Assembly (NCBI RefSeq): GCF_003390915.1
Contig: NZ_QMEM01000002.1
Coordinates: forward strand, 62,001 to 126,000
Source: Lewinella sp. IMCC34183
Lineage (GTDB): Bacteria; Bacteroidota; Bacteroidia; Chitinophagales; Saprospiraceae
Direction of reading: 5' to 3'
Length of the DNA: 64,000 nt
Position 1 is the first letter of the stretch; each line of letters starts with the position of its first letter. The position numbers and the translations under genes were made by a program. The notes under the pieces were generated by a model. The model saw only the letters and a list, made by a program, of their open reading frames with translations. It was not told the origin of the DNA and did no database searches. Shown here piece by piece: positions 17,210 to 24,733 of the stretch.

Positions 17210-18475
17210 GTGACCCTTTCCGTACCCATCCTTTCCGATATATCCACCCGCTACGACCGCGTACGGCAGCAGTCGGTACGCCTGTGCGCGCCGCTGCAGC
17301 CCGAGGACGCCACCGTGCAGCCCCACCCCGACGTAAGCCCGCCCAAGTGGCACCTGGGCCACTCCACCTGGTTCTTCGAAAACTTCGTGCTGGTGCCCCA
17401 CTCCCCCGGCTACCGGCCCTTCGACGAACGACTGAACTGGTTCTTCAACAGCTACTACGAGAGCCAGGGACCGCGGATCCTGCGCAGCCAGCGGGGCAAT
17501 ATGACGCGCCCGGCGCTGGCGCAGATCCTGGAGTACCGCACCCACGTCGATACCGCCATGCGCGAGCTGCTGGCCGGAGAGGACGAAGCGGTAGCCTCCC
17601 TCACCGAGCTGGGCCTGCACCACGAACAGCAGCACCAGGAACTCCTGGTAACCGATATCAAGTATATCCTCGGTACCAACCCCCTCTATCCCCGCTACCG
17701 GGAGCGGAAGCGGGAGGCGCCCGCCGCCGCCGCCGTTCCCCACACCTACCACGGGGTAGCCGGAGGCCGCTACTCCATCGGACACCGCGGAGCGGGTTTT
17801 TGCTGGGACAACGAACTCAGCCGGCACGACGTCCTGTTGCAACCTTTCGGCATCGGGTCGCGGCTGGTGACCAACGGGGAATACCGGCAGTTCATGGAGG
17901 ACGACGGCTACGCACGCTTCGAGCTCTGGCAGATGGAGGGGATCGCCTGGGCCCGGGAGCTCGAGGTTAAGGCACCCCTGTACTGGTACCCCGTCGACGG
18001 CGACTGGAAACACTACACCCTGACGGACGGCCTCACCACCGTCGATCCCCACCTGCCGGTCACCCACATCAGCTGGTACGAAGCCGATGCCTACGCCCGC
18101 TGGGCCGGGGCCCGGCTGCCCACCGAGTTCGAATGGGAGGCCGCGACGCGGGAGCGCGACGTGCAGCCGGACCACGACGGCAACTGGAGCGAGCGGGGCG
18201 ACCTGCATCCGGCCGCGGCGCGGTCGCCCACCGATCCCCAACTGCTCGGACATACCTGGGAATGGACAAACAGCGCGTATCTTCCCTACCCGCGGTACCC
18301 CCGGCCCGAAGGAGCCCTGGGCGAGTACAACGGCAAGTTCATGATCAACCAAATGGTGCTGCGCGGGGGCAGTTGCGCGACTCCGTTCAGCCATATCCGC
18401 CCCACCTACCGAAACTTTTTCCAACCGGATAAACGGTGGCAATTCACCGGTATCCGTCTCGCCAAAGATCTATAA
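17210..18475 (+). CDS. egtB: ergothioneine biosynthesis protein EgtB (sulfoxide synthase)
   Basis: The 421-residue protein starts at GTG 17210. The N-terminal DinB-like domain shows the iron ligands in WHLGHSTWFFE (about residue 47) and HHEQQHQELL (about 137). The C-terminal FGE-sulfatase-like domain runs from about 180 (GGRYSIGH) to GGSCATPFSHIRPTYRNFF near the end. EgtB couples hercynine to a thiol donor with O2 on non-haem iron. It is followed after 3 bp by egtD, so both form an operon that covers the two core steps from histidine. Thiol donor preference cannot be judged from sequence alone. Confidence 0.93.
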   Translation: MTLSVPILSDISTRYDRVRQQSVRLCAPLQPEDATVQPHPDVSPPKWHLGHSTWFFENFVLVPHSPGYRPFDERLNWFFNSYYESQGPRILRSQRGNMTRPALAQILEYRTHVDTAMRELLAGEDEAVASLTELGLHHEQQHQELLVTDIKYILGTNPLYPRYRERKREAPAAAAVPHTYHGVAGGRYSIGHRGAGFCWDNELSRHDVLLQPFGIGSRLVTNGEYRQFMEDDGYARFELWQMEGIAWARELEVKAPLYWYPVDGDWKHYTLTDGLTTVDPHLPVTHISWYEADAYARWAGARLPTEFEWEAATRERDVQPDHDGNWSERGDLHPAAARSPTDPQLLGHTWEWTNSAYLPYPRYPRPEGALGEYNGKFMINQMVLRGGSCATPFSHIRPTYRNFFQPDKRWQFTGIRLAKDL

Positions 18476-18478
18476 CCC

Positions 18479-19450
18479 ATGACCTCCCCCGTTACCTCCT
18501 CTACGTTGGGCGCCTTCGCCCGCGACGTTCTGCAGGGCCTTTCCGCCGACACGCCCGAGCTCAACAGCAAATGGTTCTACGACGCGCGGGGCAACGCCCT
18601 GTTCAAGCAGATCATGCAGATGCCCGAGTACTACCTCACCGAGGCCGAGGCGGACATCTACCGCAACTGCGCCGCGGAGTTGCTGCAGGCGATCGGGAAA
18701 GGCACCTTCGACCTCATCGAGCTCGGGGCCGGTGACGGCAGCAAGACCCAGCTGCTCATCGAACGCTTCCTGGCCGACGGCGCCACCTTTTCCTACCGTC
18801 CCATCGACCTGAGCGCCACGGCCCTGGCCGAGGTGCGGGAGCTCATCGAGCTCCGCTGGCCTACCCTGGATTTCGAGCCCCTGGAGGCTGATTACTTCGA
18901 GGCGCTCGACCGCCTCGGCAAATCAAACGCCGGCCGCCGCCGCCTGCTGCTCTTCCCCGGGGCCAACATCGGCAACTTCACCCCCGGCGACGCGGTGGCC
19001 CTGCTGGGCCGGATCCGGTCCTTCCTGAAGCCCGGTGACATGTTACTTACGGGCTTTGACCTGAAGAAAGACCCGGCGCGCATCCTCGCGGCTTACAACG
19101 ACGCGGCCGGCCACACGGCCAACTTCAACCTCAATATCCTGCGACGGATCAACCGGGAACTGGGTGGTAATTTCGACCTGTCCTGCTGGCGGCACTGGGA
19201 AACGTACAGCCCCGACACGGGGGCCGCGCGCAGTTTCTTGGTCCCCACCGAGGACCAGAAGGTCACCATCAATACCATTAACCGGTCCTTCAACTTCCGG
19301 GCCTGGCAGGCCATTCGCGTGGAGGTCAGCCAGAAGTACAGCCTCCGCGAGATCGAGGGCATGGCCGACGCGGCCGGCTTCAACTTCGTCCGGCACTTCC
19401 AGGACCGCGACGGACTGTTTACCGACAGCCTGTACCGGGTCGGTGGATAG
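18479..19450 (+). CDS. egtD: L-histidine N(alpha)-methyltransferase EgtD
   Basis: The 323-residue protein has KWFYDARGNALFKQI near residue 22 and LIELGAGDGSKTQLL near 79, the SAM-binding motif of the EgtD (DUF2260) family, with FPGANIGNFTPG near 159 as a second signature. It trimethylates histidine to hercynine with three SAM. ATG 18479 follows the egtB stop by 3 bp, so translation is probably coupled. An egtE lyase is not nearby and must be elsewhere if the pathway is complete. Confidence 0.94.
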   Translation: MTSPVTSSTLGAFARDVLQGLSADTPELNSKWFYDARGNALFKQIMQMPEYYLTEAEADIYRNCAAELLQAIGKGTFDLIELGAGDGSKTQLLIERFLADGATFSYRPIDLSATALAEVRELIELRWPTLDFEPLEADYFEALDRLGKSNAGRRRLLLFPGANIGNFTPGDAVALLGRIRSFLKPGDMLLTGFDLKKDPARILAAYNDAAGHTANFNLNILRRINRELGGNFDLSCWRHWETYSPDTGAARSFLVPTEDQKVTINTINRSFNFRAWQAIRVEVSQKYSLREIEGMADAAGFNFVRHFQDRDGLFTDSLYRVGG

Positions 19451-19527
19451 GACGGTGACAGCGACAAGGCAGGACGTGGGGGAAGTTCAGCGCGTCGCCG
19501 GTCGGGGCGATACAATCAGGTACGACC

Positions 19528-20400
19528 CTAGCGGTAGGAGAAAGTCGGCGTCCAGCCACTAACCCACCACTTCAGTTTCAGGAGATCGAGAAACTTCAGG
19601 TTCCGGCTCCAGAGGAGAAAGCGGATCAGCAACCGCTCCGGGATATACTCCAAAAACTGGGTAAAGACCGGGTAGCGGTCCGCAAAACGGGTCAGCCGGG
19701 TACTCAGGGTGGGGTAAGCTTTGCGCAACTCACGCAGGTTCTTGATCGCCTGTCGCTGCTTGGTCAGGAAGACCTTGGTGGGTTCGAGCCCGAGGTGGAC
19801 TACGGGATTGTCAATGTACAGGATCTGGATCCCGTCAGGTGCCAGCAGTTGCCCCCAGAGGGTATCCTCGTGTCCGTATCCCCGCACGTGCGGGAAGGGG
19901 TGGGTGAGGAGTATATCCCGTTGGGCCATAAAGTTATTCGACTGAAACTGCAGGTAGCTCATGCGCCGCCGCTGGGCGGGCTTCCTGGTCTCCCGCATCC
20001 GCCCGTACTGCCAGTGCAGTAAGTATTCCGGGTCGTCGGGTCGTTCGGAGGTATAGGTGGTACCGCCCACGAGCACGGCCGCGGGGGGGGCTTCCAGGTA
20101 CGTCCGGAGAAACTCGGGCCCCGGCCAGCTGTCCACGTCCAGCATCAGAATCCGGTTGCCGACCGCCGCCCGGACCATACGGTTGCGGATCTCGGCACGC
20201 CCCACGTTGCGCGGCAGCTCGGTGTAACGCACGCCGGGCAGTCCCTGCGTTTCGCGGTTGAGCTTGCGAATGGCCTCGGAACTGCCGTCGTCGTAGAGCA
20301 GAATCTCGATCGGATCCTTCAGGTCCGCGGCCTGCCGCACCAGTTCGCGCAGCAGAGGACGGGCGTCGTACTTGTAGACGGGTATGCAGATGGACAGCAT
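19528..20400 (-). CDS. glycosyltransferase family 2 (with galactosyltransferase-like C-terminus)
   Basis: The 290-residue protein starts MLSICIPVYKYDARPLLREL and has LLYDDGSSEAI near residue 34, LMLDVDSWPGPEF near 85 (DxD) and RGYGHEDTLWGQLL near 173, a galactosyltransferase-type acceptor motif with GHED. It should use a UDP-sugar with a divalent metal. The C-terminal 60 residues are basic and hydrophobic and may attach it to the membrane. It is preceded on the same strand by the HExxH gene 48 bp away, which may be cotranscribed. Confidence 0.87.
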   Translation of the reverse strand: MLSICIPVYKYDARPLLRELVRQAADLKDPIEILLYDDGSSEAIRKLNRETQGLPGVRYTELPRNVGRAEIRNRMVRAAVGNRILMLDVDSWPGPEFLRTYLEAPPAAVLVGGTTYTSERPDDPEYLLHWQYGRMRETRKPAQRRRMSYLQFQSNNFMAQRDILLTHPFPHVRGYGHEDTLWGQLLAPDGIQILYIDNPVVHLGLEPTKVFLTKQRQAIKNLRELRKAYPTLSTRLTRFADRYPVFTQFLEYIPERLLIRFLLWSRNLKFLDLLKLKWWVSGWTPTFSYR

Positions 20401-20448
20401 CGTGTTGGCTTAGCGGGGTGTACTTACTCTAAAAACAGGCCTCCTGGC

Positions 20449-21135
20449 CTATTGTGTCCGTGGCGGTGCGCTTTGACGATAGGCCTTCGGCAATTCAGTC
20501 TGGCGAACCTGACGTAAATATCGGTCGTAGTCGGCTAAATGCAAGGAGCGGTCGCCCGCTCCGTAGCGAAGCGGGTACCCGTTTGCCGCCCGGAAGGCAT
20601 CTTCCACCAGGGCCGCGGCTTGTTCAAGATTGAAGTCGTACAGGTCACGGCCGCCCCTCAGTCCCTCCGGTCCTCCGTAATCGTAGCCCGCGGCGGTACG
20701 CTGTGCGGCCAGGGCCCGGGGAATGTAAAGTGCGCCCAGGTGCACGTACTGCCAGACGTGCATGACCTCGTGTACCAGCAGGGGATCGGACATGGCCCCC
20801 CAGGCATTCACCGTATGAAAGCTGACGTAACAGATGCCGTAGCGACGGGTCCCGACACGGGCGCGTTCGTCGACGCGGATGCGGGCGTAGGGTACGCTCT
20901 CGCCGTAGACGGTACGCAGGAGATTTACCTCCCGCGGGGTAAGTAATCGAAGCCTGGGCGTCAGGGCATTGGAGACGAATTCGTACAGGTCGCTTATCCC
21001 CAACAGGTCCAGTAGCTGAACGCAACGATCGGACAGCCCGGTACCGACCCGCGAGGGGGGCAGCGGACCGAAGAGCCTGCTGCAGCGGAGGGGAAAAATC
21101 CTGAAAAAGAAGATGGGGAATTGGGAGGTTGGCAC
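20449..21135 (-). CDS. DUF4157-like protein with HExxH motif
   Basis: A conserved-looking region contains LTPREVNLLRTVYGESVPYARIRVDE and then HEVMHVWQ near residue 121, an HExxH motif in the arrangement of DUF4157-type putative metallopeptidases, with a later Asp/Glu-rich region that could give the third ligand. I prefer the GTG at 21135 (228 residues) because the longer frame from 21246 would begin inside the tRNA-like RNA at 21202-21356. The N-terminus has a hydrophobic segment (FPIFFFRIFPL). Function is unknown and the family call rests on motif spacing only. Confidence 0.6.
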   Translation of the reverse strand: MPTSQFPIFFFRIFPLRCSRLFGPLPPSRVGTGLSDRCVQLLDLLGISDLYEFVSNALTPRLRLLTPREVNLLRTVYGESVPYARIRVDERARVGTRRYGICYVSFHTVNAWGAMSDPLLVHEVMHVWQYVHLGALYIPRALAAQRTAAGYDYGGPEGLRGGRDLYDFNLEQAAALVEDAFRAANGYPLRYGAGDRSLHLADYDRYLRQVRQTELPKAYRQSAPPRTQ

Positions 21136-21201
21136 CCGGCTAAAGTACTGCCGGTACCGGAAGGCGGTCCGGAGGCCGAAGGTCGGCGCCGGATGGAAAA
21201 G

Positions 21202-21356
21202 TGGCTGTAGGGGCAGGAGTCGAACCTGCACGGGGCGGTTAGTCACCGGTCAAGGCTCCGGAGAGCCACGCTCGCGCGGAGCACTGATCGGTGATTTATT
21301 CCGGCTTCCCCACCCGCGAGACAAGCGGGCATGGCTGCCAATTTCATCACCCTACA
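21202..21356 (-). ncRNA. tRNA-like RNA with branched giant variable arm, copy A
   Basis: On the minus strand a 7-bp acceptor pairs TGTAGGG (5', from 21356) with CCCTACA (21212-21206), followed by a G discriminator and an encoded CCA (21204-21202). A D arm (ATG/CAT stem, leucine-like AAATTGGCAGC loop), an anticodon arm (CCCGC-TTGTCTC-GCGGG, nominal anticodon GUC) and a T arm (GCAGG-TTCGACT-CCTGC) follow class II tRNA spacing. The variable region is about 80 nt: GGGG/CCCC and CGG/CCG base stems, an inner stem TCACCG-TCA/TGA-CGGTGA, and two hairpins (GCTC/GAGC and GGCTC/GAGCC). Position 37 is U, odd for a decoding tRNA. I do not recognise the family; an odd functional tRNA remains possible. Confidence 0.7.
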
Positions 21357-21404
21357 ATGAATTTAAAATGTCAAATTTTAAATTTGAAATTCTAAACGTC
21401 GTTG

Positions 21405-21555
21405 CTGTAAGGGCAGGAGTCGAACCTGCACGGGGCGGTTAGCCCGTTTCAACGCTCCGAGGAGCGACGCTCAGCGCGGAGCACTGAAGAGGGTTTATCC
21501 CGACCTCCCCACCCGCGAGACAAGCGGGCATGGCTGCCAATTTCATCACCTTACA
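21405..21555 (-). ncRNA. tRNA-like RNA with branched giant variable arm, copy B
   Basis: This copy lies 48 bp upstream of copy A on the same strand. D, anticodon and T arms are identical to copy A. The acceptor is TGTAAGG/CCTTACA, so the fourth pair changed from G-C in A to A-T here. The inner variable stem changed to CCC-TTCA/TGAA-GGG, and the last hairpin reads CGCTC/GAGCG against GGCTC/GAGCC in A. These paired changes keep the fold, which argues for selection on structure. The discriminator is G, but the next three bases are CAA, so CCA would have to be added. Length is 151 nt with the discriminator. Confidence 0.7.
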
Positions 21556-21593
21556 AAGTATCGAACGTAGCCGTTGCTTCGTCCTTGCATTAG

Positions 21594-21626
21594 CAAAGAT
21601 GCAACTAACAGAAGGTATTACGCAAG
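21594..21626 (-). promoter_or_regulatory. predicted promoter for the tRNA-like RNAs, with dyad
   Basis: On the minus strand CTTG (21626-21623), a 21-nt spacer and CATCTTTG (21601-21594) fit TTTG-N19-21-TAnnTTTG with one mismatch in each box. It lies about 40 bp before copy B. The -7 box sits inside a perfect dyad TTGCAT (21585-21590) / ATGCAA (21599-21604) that could be an operator. Confidence 0.45.
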
Positions 21627-21760
21627 TATTCGTAACGTTATTAGAATGTTTATATATAATTATTAACGCAAAGTCCTTTTCATTGCCATTTCTTCAAAAA
21701 TGAAGTAGCGCGACGGCGGGAATTTGCGGATCTCACATCCCGCCGTTGAGCCGTCCGGAC

Positions 21761-22126
21761 TCAGAACCAGAGCGCTTCCCCGCCGCCGACCACGTAATCG
21801 ATGAGGAGTTCCTCGCCACCGGCAATGTCGCGCTCGGCCGAAAAGCGGATCTGCTCGAATTCGTAGTCCATCTCGAAGGCCAGATTGGGTTCGGATGCGT
21901 GGTTGTACAGCGAGCCGTAGCCCAGGGCGATTGCCGCGCCGTCTCCGTCCCACAGGAAGTAGTAGTCGTGAAGTCCCGTTCCGTGAATGATTGCCCGGTC
22001 TTCGGGGCTGAGCACCACCACCGGTGCGCGCTCCACCACGGTACCCGCCGGTATCGGCTCGGCGGTATAGACGCCGCGGCCGCCGAGGGGGCTGGGGCGT
22101 ACGTAGATAAAGGGAAGGTGAAGCAT
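21761..22126 (-). CDS. SET domain protein
   Basis: The 121-residue protein is a near-minimal SET domain: GRGVYTAEPIPAGTVVE near residue 17, GYGSLYNHASEPNLAF near 68 (the NHxxxPN pattern that forms the SAM pseudoknot) and GGEELLIDY near 102. SET proteins transfer methyl groups from SAM to lysine; bacterial targets are mostly unknown. Pre- and post-SET cysteine clusters are absent, as usual in bacteria. It lies 26 bp after the moxR stop on the same strand and is probably cotranscribed. Confidence 0.88.
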   Translation of the reverse strand: MLHLPFIYVRPSPLGGRGVYTAEPIPAGTVVERAPVVVLSPEDRAIIHGTGLHDYYFLWDGDGAAIALGYGSLYNHASEPNLAFEMDYEFEQIRFSAERDIAGGEELLIDYVVGGGEALWF

Positions 22127-22152
22127 GGGCTGGCGCGTCGGGATCCGCTGGT

Positions 22153-23124
22153 CTAGAACAGGCCCCGAATGACGTGCTCTTCGGTGATACCTTCCGCCTC
22201 GGCCTTATAGTTGCGGACGATGCGGTGGCGCAGGACGTAGTTTGCAATGGCCTGTACGTCCTCGATGTCGGGACTGTACTTGCCGTTGATGGCGGCGTGA
22301 CACTTGGCACCCAGCACCAGGTACTGGCTGGCCCGGGGGCCCGCGCCCCAGCTGATGTACTCGTTTACGTTGGTCCCGGCACGGGAGGTATTGGGCCGGG
22401 TCTTCCCGGTAAGTTTGACGGCGTACTCCAGTACGTTGTCGCTGATGGGAATCTTGCGCACGAGCTGCTGGAAGTAGAGGATGTCCTCACCGCTCAGTAC
22501 GTGGCTGACGCTATTGCGTCCGACGCCGGTGGTACCCTTCACAACGGCAAGCTCTTCCTCGTAGGAAGGGTAATCCAGCGGAATATTGAACATAAAGCGG
22601 TCCAGCTGGGCCTCCGGCAAGGGGTAGGTCCCCTCCTGCTCGATCGGGTTCTGGGTAGCCAGTACGAAAAAGGGGGCGGGCAGGGCGTGGCGGTCGCCGG
22701 CCACGGTGACGGAACGCTCCTGCATGGCCTCCAGCAGGGCGGCCTGCGTCTTGGGCGGTGTCCGGTTGATCTCGTCGGCCAGGACGATGTTGGCGAACAG
22801 CGGCCCGGGATTGAATTCGAAGTGGCGCTCGTCGTTCAGGATTTCCGAGCCGGTAATGTCGGTAGGCATCAGGTCGGGCGTGAACTGGATGCGCTTGAAG
22901 TCGAGTTCCAGCACCTCGGAGATCGTGGAGACCAATAGCGTCTTGGCAAGCCCGGGTACGCCGACGAGGAGCGAGTGGCCGTTGGAGAACAGGGAGATCA
23001 GCACCGTCTTCACCACTTCCTGCTGCCCCACGATCACCTTGCCGATCTCCGCGCGCAGGTCCTGATACGATTGGGCGAGGGCGTCAACGGCTTCTACGTC
23101 GGAGGAATATTTGGGGGCTGGCAT
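22153..23124 (-). CDS. MoxR family AAA+ ATPase
   Basis: The 323-residue protein has Walker A GVPGLAKTLL near residue 58, the sensor region ITGSEILN, Walker B VLADEINRTPPKTQAALLEAM near 113 and the MoxR signature ATQNPIEQEGTYPLPEAQLDRF near 154 split over the arginine finger. MoxR ATPases act as chaperones that help VWA-domain or envelope proteins mature. The usual DUF58/VWA partners are not adjacent; the next gene is the SET protein. A TATTTTTG -7-like box lies about 65 bp upstream. Confidence 0.93.
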   Translation of the reverse strand: MPAPKYSSDVEAVDALAQSYQDLRAEIGKVIVGQQEVVKTVLISLFSNGHSLLVGVPGLAKTLLVSTISEVLELDFKRIQFTPDLMPTDITGSEILNDERHFEFNPGPLFANIVLADEINRTPPKTQAALLEAMQERSVTVAGDRHALPAPFFVLATQNPIEQEGTYPLPEAQLDRFMFNIPLDYPSYEEELAVVKGTTGVGRNSVSHVLSGEDILYFQQLVRKIPISDNVLEYAVKLTGKTRPNTSRAGTNVNEYISWGAGPRASQYLVLGAKCHAAINGKYSPDIEDVQAIANYVLRHRIVRNYKAEAEGITEEHVIRGLF

Positions 23125-23189
23125 AGTGATCGTTTAGTAAAGTAGGGTTTCCGGCGGCGGCGGTAATACGGGCCCGAAGCACCGGGCTT

Positions 23190-23197
23190 CAAAAATA
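23190..23197 (-). promoter_or_regulatory. -7 box TATTTTTG before moxR
   Basis: TATTTTTG on the minus strand fits TAnnTTTG exactly, 66 bp before the moxR ATG. No clear -33 box at the correct spacing is visible. Confidence 0.35.
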
Positions 23198-23215
23198 GAA
23201 GACTGCCGGATCAAT

Positions 23216-24733
23216 CTAATTGTTGCCTCGGGTGAAGCTTTTCCAGGTAAGTTGCCCCAATCCGACGGCTCCCAGCAGAAAAAGTAGCATGGCCGGGAAG
23301 CCCCCGAGGGTAGAGATGAGGCGGATACCGTCCAGCCCCGCGAAACTGACCAGTACCCAGGCGGTCACGCCGATGGTGAGTCCCCACACCAGTTTGACCC
23401 CCACCGGCGCCTCGGCCGAATCCGGACCGGTATCGCGCATGCACAGGGCACTCATCGCGGATACATTGGAGTCCGCCGCCGTCACGTACGAAAGGAACAC
23501 CAACACGAGGAATACCAGTGCCGTCACCGCCAGCCCCGGCAGTTGCTCGAGCAAGGCGTAGGCCACCGCTTCCGGCCCGCCCGCGGCCAGGGCGGCGGAC
23601 AGCGCGCCATTGGTCTGCCCGTCCAGGACCAGGGAGGTGCCGCCGAAGGCGATCATCCAGCCGGCCCCGAAGAGCGAGGTGAAGAGCAGGTTGACCTCGA
23701 TGAACCGGCGCACGGTGTACCCGCGGGCGAGCCGCCCCAGGAAGAGGGCCGTGATCGGCGCCCAGGCGTACCAGTTGGCCCAGTAGAAACCGGTCCACGC
23801 GTGACTCCAGTCGGCGGGGATCCCCGGGTCGGTCCCGAGGTTCCGCGGTACGAAGGTGACCACGAAGTCGGCCGCCGCCGCTCCGGCCAGCGCCAGGGTT
23901 TCCGCCAGCGGGCCCGTCACGAAGACGAAGGCGGCCAGCAGCATGAACCCGATGATGTTGTAATTCGATAATACCCGGATGCCCCGCTGCAGGCCGGTTG
24001 CCGCGGATACGCAGAATGCCACGACGATACAGCCGATGATGACCGCCAGCCGGAGGGGCGTTGCACCCGCGTCCCCGCCGAAGTAGCCCGCCAGCCCGCC
24101 ACTGAGGGCCAGGCTCCCCGCGCCGAGGGCCGCCGACATCCCCGCCACGAGCGCGAACAGGCACACGGCATCAACCGCCGCCCCCCCGTGGGTATGGACG
24201 CGATCGCCCAGCACGGGCCGCAGCAGCGTACTCAGGGAAAAGGGCTGTCCGTGGCTGTAGAAGCCCAGGGCAAAGAGCAGTCCGCCAACGGTATAGATGG
24301 CGTAGGGGGTCAGCGTCCAGTGGAGAAAGAGTGTGGAGAGGGCGAATACCGCGGGTTCACCCTCTCCCGCCGGCGGCGGCGCACTCACGTGGTAAATAGG
24401 CTCCGCGATACCCCAAAACAGGATACCGGTAGCGATGGTCGTGCACGCCGTGATCGCAAACCACCGCCAGGGGGAAAGCAACCGCGTAGCTCCTGCGCCA
24501 CCGATGACGGAACGGCCGAGGGGAGAGATGTACACGACCGCCAGCAGCAACAGGAAGCCCGAGCACGACCACGCGAAGAGCCAGTCGAACCGCTCGAGTA
24601 TCCAGTCGCTGGCCGCCTGGGCGTACGCGATCAGGCCCACCGGGTCGTACAGTGCCAGCAGCGCGCAGATCAGCAGCGGGAGCAGCGGCGGCAGCAGTAC
24701 GGAATAGCGGATATGAGGGAGGGTCGGGCGCAC
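23216..24733 (-). CDS. BCCT family betaine/choline/carnitine transporter
   Basis: The 505-residue protein starts at GTG 24733 and has about 12 membrane segments. GILFWGIAEPIYHVS near residue 103 is the BCCT landmark, and FYWANWYAWAPITALFLGRL near 300 is the Trp-rich substrate segment (WxxWxWAP) followed by RGYTVRRFI. BCCT carriers import quaternary ammonium compounds with Na+ or H+, often for osmoprotection. The long osmosensing C-terminal tail of BetP is absent. A CHT1-like symporter lies 0.8 kb away, so the area seems devoted to choline or betaine uptake. Confidence 0.92.
   Translation of the reverse strand: MRPTLPHIRYSVLLPPLLPLLICALLALYDPVGLIAYAQAASDWILERFDWLFAWSCSGFLLLLAVVYISPLGRSVIGGAGATRLLSPWRWFAITACTTIATGILFWGIAEPIYHVSAPPPAGEGEPAVFALSTLFLHWTLTPYAIYTVGGLLFALGFYSHGQPFSLSTLLRPVLGDRVHTHGGAAVDAVCLFALVAGMSAALGAGSLALSGGLAGYFGGDAGATPLRLAVIIGCIVVAFCVSAATGLQRGIRVLSNYNIIGFMLLAAFVFVTGPLAETLALAGAAAADFVVTFVPRNLGTDPGIPADWSHAWTGFYWANWYAWAPITALFLGRLARGYTVRRFIEVNLLFTSLFGAGWMIAFGGTSLVLDGQTNGALSAALAAGGPEAVAYALLEQLPGLAVTALVFLVLVFLSYVTAADSNVSAMSALCMRDTGPDSAEAPVGVKLVWGLTIGVTAWVLVSFAGLDGIRLISTLGGFPAMLLFLLGAVGLGQLTWKSFTRGNN

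Follow-up and report, generated by a model that had tools for sequence, protein, structure and literature searches.

In the indirect route to Asn-tRNA(Asn), aspartate is attached to tRNA-Asn by a non-discriminating AspRS and amidated by GatCAB, as in Bdellovibrio, Deinococcus and Thermus (PMC4206432). In the sections of that survey drawn on here, the U1-A72 pair is the determinant for GatCAB, with G1-C72/U20a as antideterminants. Its table gives U1-A72 tRNA-Asn in 67 of 67 cases with AsnRS, GlnRS and GatCAB, and the 18 surveyed genera that have these three and no asparagine synthetase, some of them Bacteroidetes, all have U1-A72 tRNA-Asn. The determinants for AspRS, as given in an extract of PMC9976931, are G73, G34, U35, C36 and C38, and the E. 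coli enzyme is helped by G1-C72. The allo-tRNAs have acceptor branches of 8/4 or 9/3; for the 8/4 kind, the anticodons listed in an extract of PMC7609411 include GUC.

Two tandem tRNA-like RNAs and their fold

The window, by which we mean the whole 64,000-nucleotide stretch of Lewinella sp. IMCC34183 DNA that was analyzed, contains two RNAs that can be compared with these systems. Copy 2 (21402..21555, 154 nt, 3′ end GCAA) is first in transcription order, and is followed after a spacing of 45 bp by copy 1 (21202..21356, 155 nt including the 3′ GCCA). They score 162 and 171 bits, respectively, with our covariance model R1, and no other copies were found in the whole genome. A preliminary description had placed two tandem tRNA-like RNAs here, each with a variable arm of about 80 nt. 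Both points are confirmed; the strand is minus for both RNAs and all their parts, and the variable region is 82 nt in copy 2 (21430..21511) and 83 nt in copy 1 (21230..21312).

Each RNA can be drawn with a 7-bp acceptor stem, a 3-bp D stem and anticodon and T stems of 5 bp, with 7-nt T and anticodon loops (UUCGACU and UUGUCUC) and a G discriminator. The anticodon loops, at 21517..21523 in copy 2 and 21318..21324 in copy 1, are identical. A72 and the discriminator G73 lie at 21405..21406 in copy 2, where A72 pairs with U1 at 21555, and at 21205..21206 in copy 1, where it pairs with U1 at 21356. The variable region of copy 2 comprises a GGGG/CCCC base stem, a CGG/CCG stem, a conserved internal loop NANAAA/CUAA and one long hairpin, and the architecture of copy 1 is the same.

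ARAGORN called no tRNA in the window. A comparison with Rfam, suggested in the preliminary description, was made using Rfam 15 and matched no family: there was no match at E ≤ 1 in window positions 19000-24000, none overlapping a copy in 10 loci at the gathering score, and none overlapping a copy at E ≤ 1 in six loci with copies of 112-148 nt. The genome contains 38 matches to RF00005, an ordinary tRNA-Asp(GUC) among them. The 3′ CCA is unconserved in the tRNA-like RNAs (GCNN); as a clue it was dropped because the ordinary tRNA genes of the same genome end alike, being mostly N73-C74 followed by random nucleotides.

Two other features of the window were observed. An ORF called at 20449-21246 (minus strand) begins inside copy 1, and its true start is probably near 21100; the 217-aa product that was tested matched no Pfam family at E ≤ 0.001. 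At 17210-19450 (plus strand) a DinB/FGE-sulfatase protein adjoins a histidine-specific methyltransferase, and from their domains we take these to be an EgtB-EgtD-like ergothioneine pair.

Relative to shuffled sequences, the two window copies have folding z-scores of −3.3 and −2.8 (with ends off by up to 3 nt). Minimum-energy folds of the single sequences recover the tip hairpin and three of the stems (acceptor, anticodon and T), but in the D arm and at the base of the variable arm the pairing departs from the cloverleaf. Single-sequence folds are insufficient alone, and the cloverleaf was therefore assigned from covariation. In a MAFFT alignment of 27 copies the paired fraction of cells is 98.5%, and double-sided changes affect 15 of 29 pairs, compared to a shuffled mean of 7.5. 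A covariance-model alignment of 59 copies, which leans to its own structure, has double-sided changes in 21 of 29 pairs versus 14.0. The covariation seen earlier between the two window copies is thus upheld across homologues. The same description had ended the arm in a three-way junction with two hairpins. Minimum-energy folds of the tip do not support this, giving a single long hairpin in 35 of 35 long copies of the genus.

The family consensus has a 7-bp acceptor stem and a 5-bp T stem, and an anticodon arm is present. The suggestion of an allo-tRNA is not supported, because the branch has this usual 7+5 form. The variable arm begins with a GGGG/CCCC-type stem, followed by CGG/CCG and the internal loop, the CUAA of which is found in 149 of 160 host copies; the tip varies across the family. 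One tip variant contains the box GGRUNGACCA and occurs in 38 of the 160 host copies and in 19 of the 22 distinct phage copies; another is a minimal hairpin, giving whole RNAs of about 110-122 nt. Family-wide the RNA is 79-199 nt in length, or 110-199 nt apart from one 79-nt copy. This reduced copy (genome G336, L368:10336-10414) is without the long arm, has the loop CTATCTC and is called as tRNA-Asp(atc) by ARAGORN; G336 has asnA and no GlnRS match. Genome G424, of the same genus, has a 118-nt copy. Both genomes are altered at position 34 and both have asnA, which fits a relaxed constraint, within one genus only.

Two further readings of the RNA were set aside. A short ORF in the arm (ATG GGT TGA in some copies) was checked by eye and dropped because its frame is not kept among the GGRUNGACCAC box variants. 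Pairing of the loop (C/U)UGUCUC with a complementary stretch GAGACAG, which we take to be present in 16S rRNA, is broken by the loops CAGUCUC, UUGUCCC, CUCUCUC and CUUUCUC, and chance 7-mer matches are not rare.

A DNA search of 60 genomes, the window's own included, gave homologues with E below 1e-16 in 18 of the 20 other genomes of the genus, many of them tandem, and further homologues outside the genus but within its family and order; weak matches were mostly T-arm matches to ordinary tRNAs. A covariance-model search, also proposed earlier, gave many homologues of the same fold in other genomes, and two copies in the window's own. With model R1, members score from about 68 bits up, and ordinary tRNAs of about 86 nt reach 63.7 bits. 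A broader model, R2, placed the RNA in 75 of 396 sampled genomes of the class (E ≤ 1e-17), in 20 families, to which the R1 search adds one family, f67, labelled outside the class. Both models were trained on copies with a GUC-type loop. A pattern scan of GTDB gave at least 119 stretches with the RNA pattern, the genera among the matches listed being Chitinophaga, Niabella, Ferruginibacter, Dyadobacter, Emticicia, Algoriphagus, Cyclobacterium, Echinicola, Neolewinella and Lewinella. In the open-access literature we found no title or abstract describing such an RNA. The family of oversized tRNA-like RNAs is apparently undescribed so far, a widespread family overlooked by ARAGORN and Rfam in this analysis.

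Identity nucleotides in host and phage copies

Identity nucleotides were examined in 160 distinct host copies from 107 loci, 159 of them complete, found by covariance model or BLAST with no use of an anticodon pattern. U1-A72, G2-C71, G73 and C74 are present in 159/159 complete copies, and U35 and C36 in 160/160. G34 is found in 154 and C38 in 158 of the 160, and all AspRS determinants (G73, G34, U35, C36, C38) occur jointly in 152 of the complete copies. The D loop after G18G19 is mostly C-A-G-[AC], which by our reading in Leu-type numbering gives A at position 20a and no U20a. In both window copies, G34, U35, C36 and C38 of the anticodon loop correspond to aspartate determinants (PMC9976931, in extract), and A72 and G73 to a GatCAB and an AspRS determinant (PMC9976931, PMC4206432). 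The nucleotides of the RNA join the determinants for AspRS and GatCAB in one molecule.

The features associated with decoding behave differently. U33 is present in 139 of the 160 host copies. Position 37 is occupied by U in 150 copies, by G in five, by C in four and by A in a single one. U37 in an anticodon loop is atypical of decoding tRNAs. Decoding features are thus degraded, in contrast to the retained aspartate determinants, and the anticodon GUC with U37, singled out in the preliminary description, proved to be a useful clue. A non-decoding tRNA-like RNA, one of the possibilities it raised, is probably correct, the RNA being conserved and structured, with homologues of the same fold and no Rfam match. 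A serine-like identity is unlikely, because U35 and C36 are invariant, a constraint not expected of a synthetase that makes no use of the anticodon.

Three of the six host copies that lack G34 have the anticodon UUC and two have CUC. Since GatCAB makes Gln too, these copies could be taken to mean that the RNA carries glutamate and then glutamine, being charged by GluRS before the action of GatCAB. However, G34 is found in 154/160 copies, the GluRS determinants U34, A37, G1-C72 and U2-A71 (PMC4206432, in extract) are mostly missing, and GlnRS is present in 27 of the 40 tested genomes that carry the RNA; we consider a glutamate carrier extremely improbable. Two U34 copies come from one genus (G771 and G822), and the genome tested, G771, is without AsnA and AsnB.

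The anticodon-arm pattern was also found in 50 IMG/VR viral contigs. The AspRS determinants are present in 22/22 phage copies, whose anticodon arm was prescribed by the search pattern, and U1-A72 in 21 of the 22, the remaining one having A1-U72. Among 26 host copies found by pattern, U1-A72 is present in 24, with one A1-A72 and one cut. Ordinary tRNAs accompany the RNA in 29 of the 50 viral stretches, and an ordinary tRNA-Asp does so in seven; several phages therefore carry the RNA additionally, and not as a substitute for tRNA-Asp. Stretch L252 has 25 tRNAs, with a tmRNA called 22 bp after the RNA (array L252:4948-5517). In L261 the RNA is followed by a tmRNA with a 23-bp gap, and Rfam confirms a separate tmRNA. 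Phage tRNA-Asn calls begin with G (6/6 distinct) and tRNA-Gln calls with U (14/14). A search of a collection of named phages using one phage copy gave one 31-nt partial match, and using another gave none.

Some phage RNAs have an enlarged, often hairpin-like D loop, giving a whole RNA of 140-174 nt (L240, L241, L243, L252, L257, L259, L261, L263, L267, L280 and L286). These insertions mark a second place where the RNA tolerates growth. Separately, L247:7680-7830, L247:6140-6262 and L277:3170-3301 are phage RNAs, 123-151 nt long, whose ends are tRNA-like (AGTCAGG...CCTGACT) and in which no anticodon arm was recognizable; these are possibly intron-bearing tRNA-Leu or another tRNA-like RNA.

Could the RNA be a specialized tRNA-Asp isoacceptor, still decoding, in which the variable arm has become enlarged? 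Its anticodon is GUC in 154/160 host copies, its T arm, G18G19 and acceptor are intact, and it is carried in phage tRNA arrays. Yet U33 is missing in 21/160 copies and A37 is present in 1/160 only, an ordinary tRNA-Asp exists in the window's genome as well as in the seven phage stretches, and U1-A72 would expose the attached aspartate to GatCAB, with Asn-for-Asp errors as the likely consequence. A decoding role is thus very unlikely.

Co-occurrence with GatCAB and the AsnC-type neighbor

We analyzed 80 genomes, comprising 40 of the 75 R2 carriers and 40 non-carriers (mostly those with low handle numbers), picked before their gatB status was known. A non-carrier is a genome with no copy by R2 at E ≤ 1e-17 under strict filters, a definition that divergent copies could escape; for G271 and G487 the status is from R1 at E ≤ 1e-3. 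gatB was found in 40/40 carriers and 25/40 non-carriers, and glnS in 43/80 genomes, including 27 of the carriers. asnS was matched in 80/80, with 79 above the cut-off; the single weak match, G573, is one of the 16 GlnRS-bearing non-carriers. All 37 genomes without GlnRS have gatB, as expected because it is needed for tRNA-Gln. Where GlnRS and AsnRS are both present, GatCAB should be dispensable. Among GlnRS-bearing genomes gatB is found in 27/27 carriers versus 1/16 non-carriers (Fisher 1e-10, treating genomes as independent), and when the contrast is collapsed by family and state in 9/9 versus 1/14 (p 1e-5). Carriers and non-carriers occur together in families f20 and f23, which follow the gatB rule. 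The window's genome has gatB, asnS and glnS.

The lone exception is G559, a non-carrier with GlnRS. On its contig C19 (L376:8407-13124) gatA is directly followed by a gene for a 1106-aa GatB-AspRS fusion with GatB_N, GatB_Yqey, anticodon-binding, tRNA-synt_2 and GAD domains, and a second, normal AspRS is encoded at L377:5972-7723. No RNA copy was found near either at E ≤ 10 in the two stretches. The fusion possibly forms a covalent Asp-amidation complex, and it independently connects GatB with aspartate.

The window's genome has no match to asnB or asnA at E ≤ 1e-20. Three other tested carriers (G129, G550 and G771) are also without AsnA and AsnB, as are the non-carriers G070 and G575. An AsnB-family gene is found in 36 of the 40 tested carriers at E ≤ 1e-20, in a family that includes paralogues with other functions; that AsnB falls below the cut-off in G141, G447 and G506 was deduced from E-values. 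The tRNA-Asn of the window's genome begins with G1. A further 51 tRNAs were called in the host loci retrieved, most of them belonging to that genome, and none has U1. In view of the survey of PMC4206432, as far as its extract goes, tRNA-Asn could therefore be a GatCAB substrate in some carriers, host tRNA-Asn having been checked in the window's genome only.

An Lrp/AsnC-family gene adjoins the RNA in 26 of 41 loci, and is divergent in all 26. In named genomes, among 105 loci with enough flank, a divergent AsnC-type gene is present in 68, another arrangement in none, and no such gene was found beside the RNA in 37. The gap between the RNA and the regulator is about 121-261 bp, with a median of about 152. 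Loci found by covariance model alone have the divergent gene beside the RNA in 26 of 38 cases. It was not found beside the RNA in the window or in the same-genus loci L117, L141 and L197, nor near the phage copies in the 50 viral stretches; the homologue in the window's genome sits elsewhere in the genome. The best NCBIfam match was AsnC for 9/9 regulators tested, at 156-180 bits with the next at no more than 88.5 and the cut-off of 227 not reached. AsnC is also the best match, below cut-off, for the homologue in the window's genome, and in one regulator tested against Pfam the AsnC ligand domain was found. The asnC and asnA genes of E. coli K-12 also lie head-to-head, 151 bp apart. We looked for a locus where the RNA had directly taken the place of asnA and saw no case, because an AsnC-type gene lies near asnA in 0/5 Bacteroidota asnA loci; no RNA copy was found in those stretches.

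A repeat or mobile element was dropped as an explanation because the synteny recurs and the changes in the fold are compensatory. The repeat family considered in the preliminary description is likewise opposed by the fixed place of the RNA beside the AsnC-type gene in many families.

Upstream of host copies, 49 of 125 flanks contain TTTG-N16-22-TANNTTTG, which we take to be the Bacteroidota promoter consensus, compared to a mean of 0.3 in 50 base shuffles. Frequent family-wide, it is weak in the window, where a near-consensus −7 box CATCTTTG (21594..21601, minus strand) with one mismatch to TANNTTTG lies upstream of copy 2; a sigma-70 scan of the window found no promoter. GTTCTT was observed no more than 60 bases upstream of the RNA 5′ end in 34/125 flanks versus 1.7 in shuffles (e.g., L095 and L087); we take this motif to resemble the boxA antitermination signal of rRNA leaders.

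Of the 36 loci in which a copy could be placed, no more than 5 share any other neighbor family within 1 kb. Two such neighbors were identified. A Methyltransf_4 protein is found in five, all in order-level relatives (L081, L089, L092, L098 and L102), and an AMP-binding enzyme in three. Methyltransf_4 presumably includes the TrmB-type tRNA m7G46 methyltransferases, and such an enzyme would act beside the variable arm of the RNA.

These neighbors bear on the possibility that GatCAB acts on the RNA but the Asn-RNA donates its aminoacyl group elsewhere, in the cell wall, in lipid, or in peptide or protein tagging. Non-proteinogenic tRNAs that feed the cell wall exist, and a donor would fit the same identity nucleotides and co-occurrence with gatB. 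However, the only widely and closely shared neighbor is the AsnC-type gene (26/41 loci), and neither the Methyltransf_4 protein nor the AMP-binding enzyme is an obvious aminoacyl transferase. We regard a donor of this kind as unlikely.

Phage carriage, the divergent regulator and the tandem copies might also be explained by a decoy or regulatory RNA, acting for example as a sponge for tRNA-cleaving nucleases or as partner of the AsnC-type protein, charged or not, with a link to GatCAB that is historical. Such a function predicts neither the invariant U1-A72 and G73, nor that gatB and the RNA should be missing together where GlnRS is present, nor the fusion of GatB to AspRS in G559. A decoy seems distinctly unlikely.

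A proposed carrier for asparagine synthesis

The members of the family are probably tRNA-like RNAs that do not decode and are instead dedicated carriers for asparagine synthesis, with a chemistry that we infer as follows. The RNA would be transcribed from its own promoter, often beside the divergent AsnC-type regulator, by which it may be controlled. AspRS would load aspartate through G73, G34, U35, C36 and C38, all of which are observed. GatCAB, needing the observed U1-A72 pair, would amidate Asp-RNA to Asn-RNA, in keeping with the co-occurrence. Asparagine would then be freed, and used by AsnRS for the ordinary tRNA-Asn. The relaxed U33, a nucleotide other than A at position 37 and the size of the variable arm would prevent Asn-RNA from reading Asp codons. 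Such a carrier would permit Asn synthesis on RNA with neither a relaxed-specificity AspRS nor a GatCAB-recognizable Asn-type tRNA; a normal AspRS could suffice because the carrier has an Asp anticodon loop.

A dedicated carrier is the simplest account of the observed identity nucleotides, co-occurrence, synteny, promoter motif and covariation, on which the postulated transcription, charging, amidation, Asn release and regulation are founded. Several observations count against it. Most carriers have an AsnB-family gene. G34 is replaced in 6/160 copies, and a failing RNA would be costly in G771, which lacks AsnA and AsnB. The RNA has no G1-C72, a pair that helps E. coli AspRS. As the genera surveyed in PMC4206432 suggest, tRNA-Asn could instead serve GatCAB in some carriers. 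The window and 37/105 loci have no adjoining AsnC-type gene, and such a gene is near asnA in 0/5 Bacteroidota loci. Moreover, the carrier model alone leaves phage carriage unexplained; phage copies might sustain the supply of asparagine when host RNAs are lost.

On balance we are inclined to see here a new functional RNA class, an amino-acid-biosynthesis carrier outside decoding in which AspRS and GatCAB recognition are joined. It would be an RNA counterpart of asnA, with a head-to-head AsnC-type regulator in many species, and would matter enough for some phages with large tRNA sets to bring copies of their own. If this is true, it explains why many Bacteroidota retain GatCAB despite having GlnRS and AsnRS, and supplies the missing asparagine route to seemingly auxotrophic genomes, the window's own included. 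A tRNA would have been turned into a biosynthetic cofactor. RNA-bound metabolism has often been proposed as ancient but, to our knowledge, few dedicated molecules for it have been seen. Whether organisms that possess all 20 synthetases make Asn in a tRNA-dependent way also becomes directly testable in laboratory strains.

How does the RNA compare with known systems? As in the indirect pathway (PMC4206432, in extract), aspartate on a U1-A72 RNA would be amidated by GatCAB, with AsnRS and GlnRS also present; that pathway uses a decoding tRNA-Asn and a relaxed AspRS, whereas here the RNA has an Asp anticodon loop and is seemingly unable to decode. It has what is expected of a GatCAB substrate, U1-A72 without U20a, and is found only with GatCAB (gatB in 40/40 tested carriers). 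Like the allo-tRNAs (PMC7609411, in extract) it is a non-canonical bacterial tRNA, but with a branch of 7/5. With tRNA-Asp it shares the full set of AspRS determinants, G73, G34, U35, C36 and C38, and also G2-C71. It differs from tRNA-Asp in having U1-A72 in place of G1-C72, no A37, a relaxed U33, a Leu-like D arm and, in the window, a variable region of 82-83 nt; the combination GUC, U33 and A37 of an ordinary tRNA-Asp is not kept (154/160, 139/160 and 1/160, respectively).

The long variable arm is shared with the class II tRNAs (Leu, Ser and Sec), and the D arm resembles that of tRNA-Leu, but the arm is usually several times longer and has a conserved internal loop. In place of the A73 of tRNA-Leu there is G73 (159/159), and the anticodon, unconstrained in tRNA-Ser and tRNA-Sec, has U35 and C36 in 160/160. 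A tmRNA would have an mRNA-like tag domain and no anticodon arm, whereas the anticodon arm is present here. In E. coli asnC-asnA, too, an AsnC-type regulator is head-to-head with an Asn-making gene, a role proposed here for the RNA, across a gap of 151 bp; here the partner is an RNA gene and not asparagine synthetase A, and the regulator is below the AsnC cut-off. Finally, the non-proteinogenic tRNA-Gly of Staphylococcus, which donates Gly to the cell wall, is likewise a tRNA gene reserved for a non-ribosomal task. Unlike that tRNA, the present RNA would be a carrier for amino-acid synthesis, and is structurally far from a normal tRNA.
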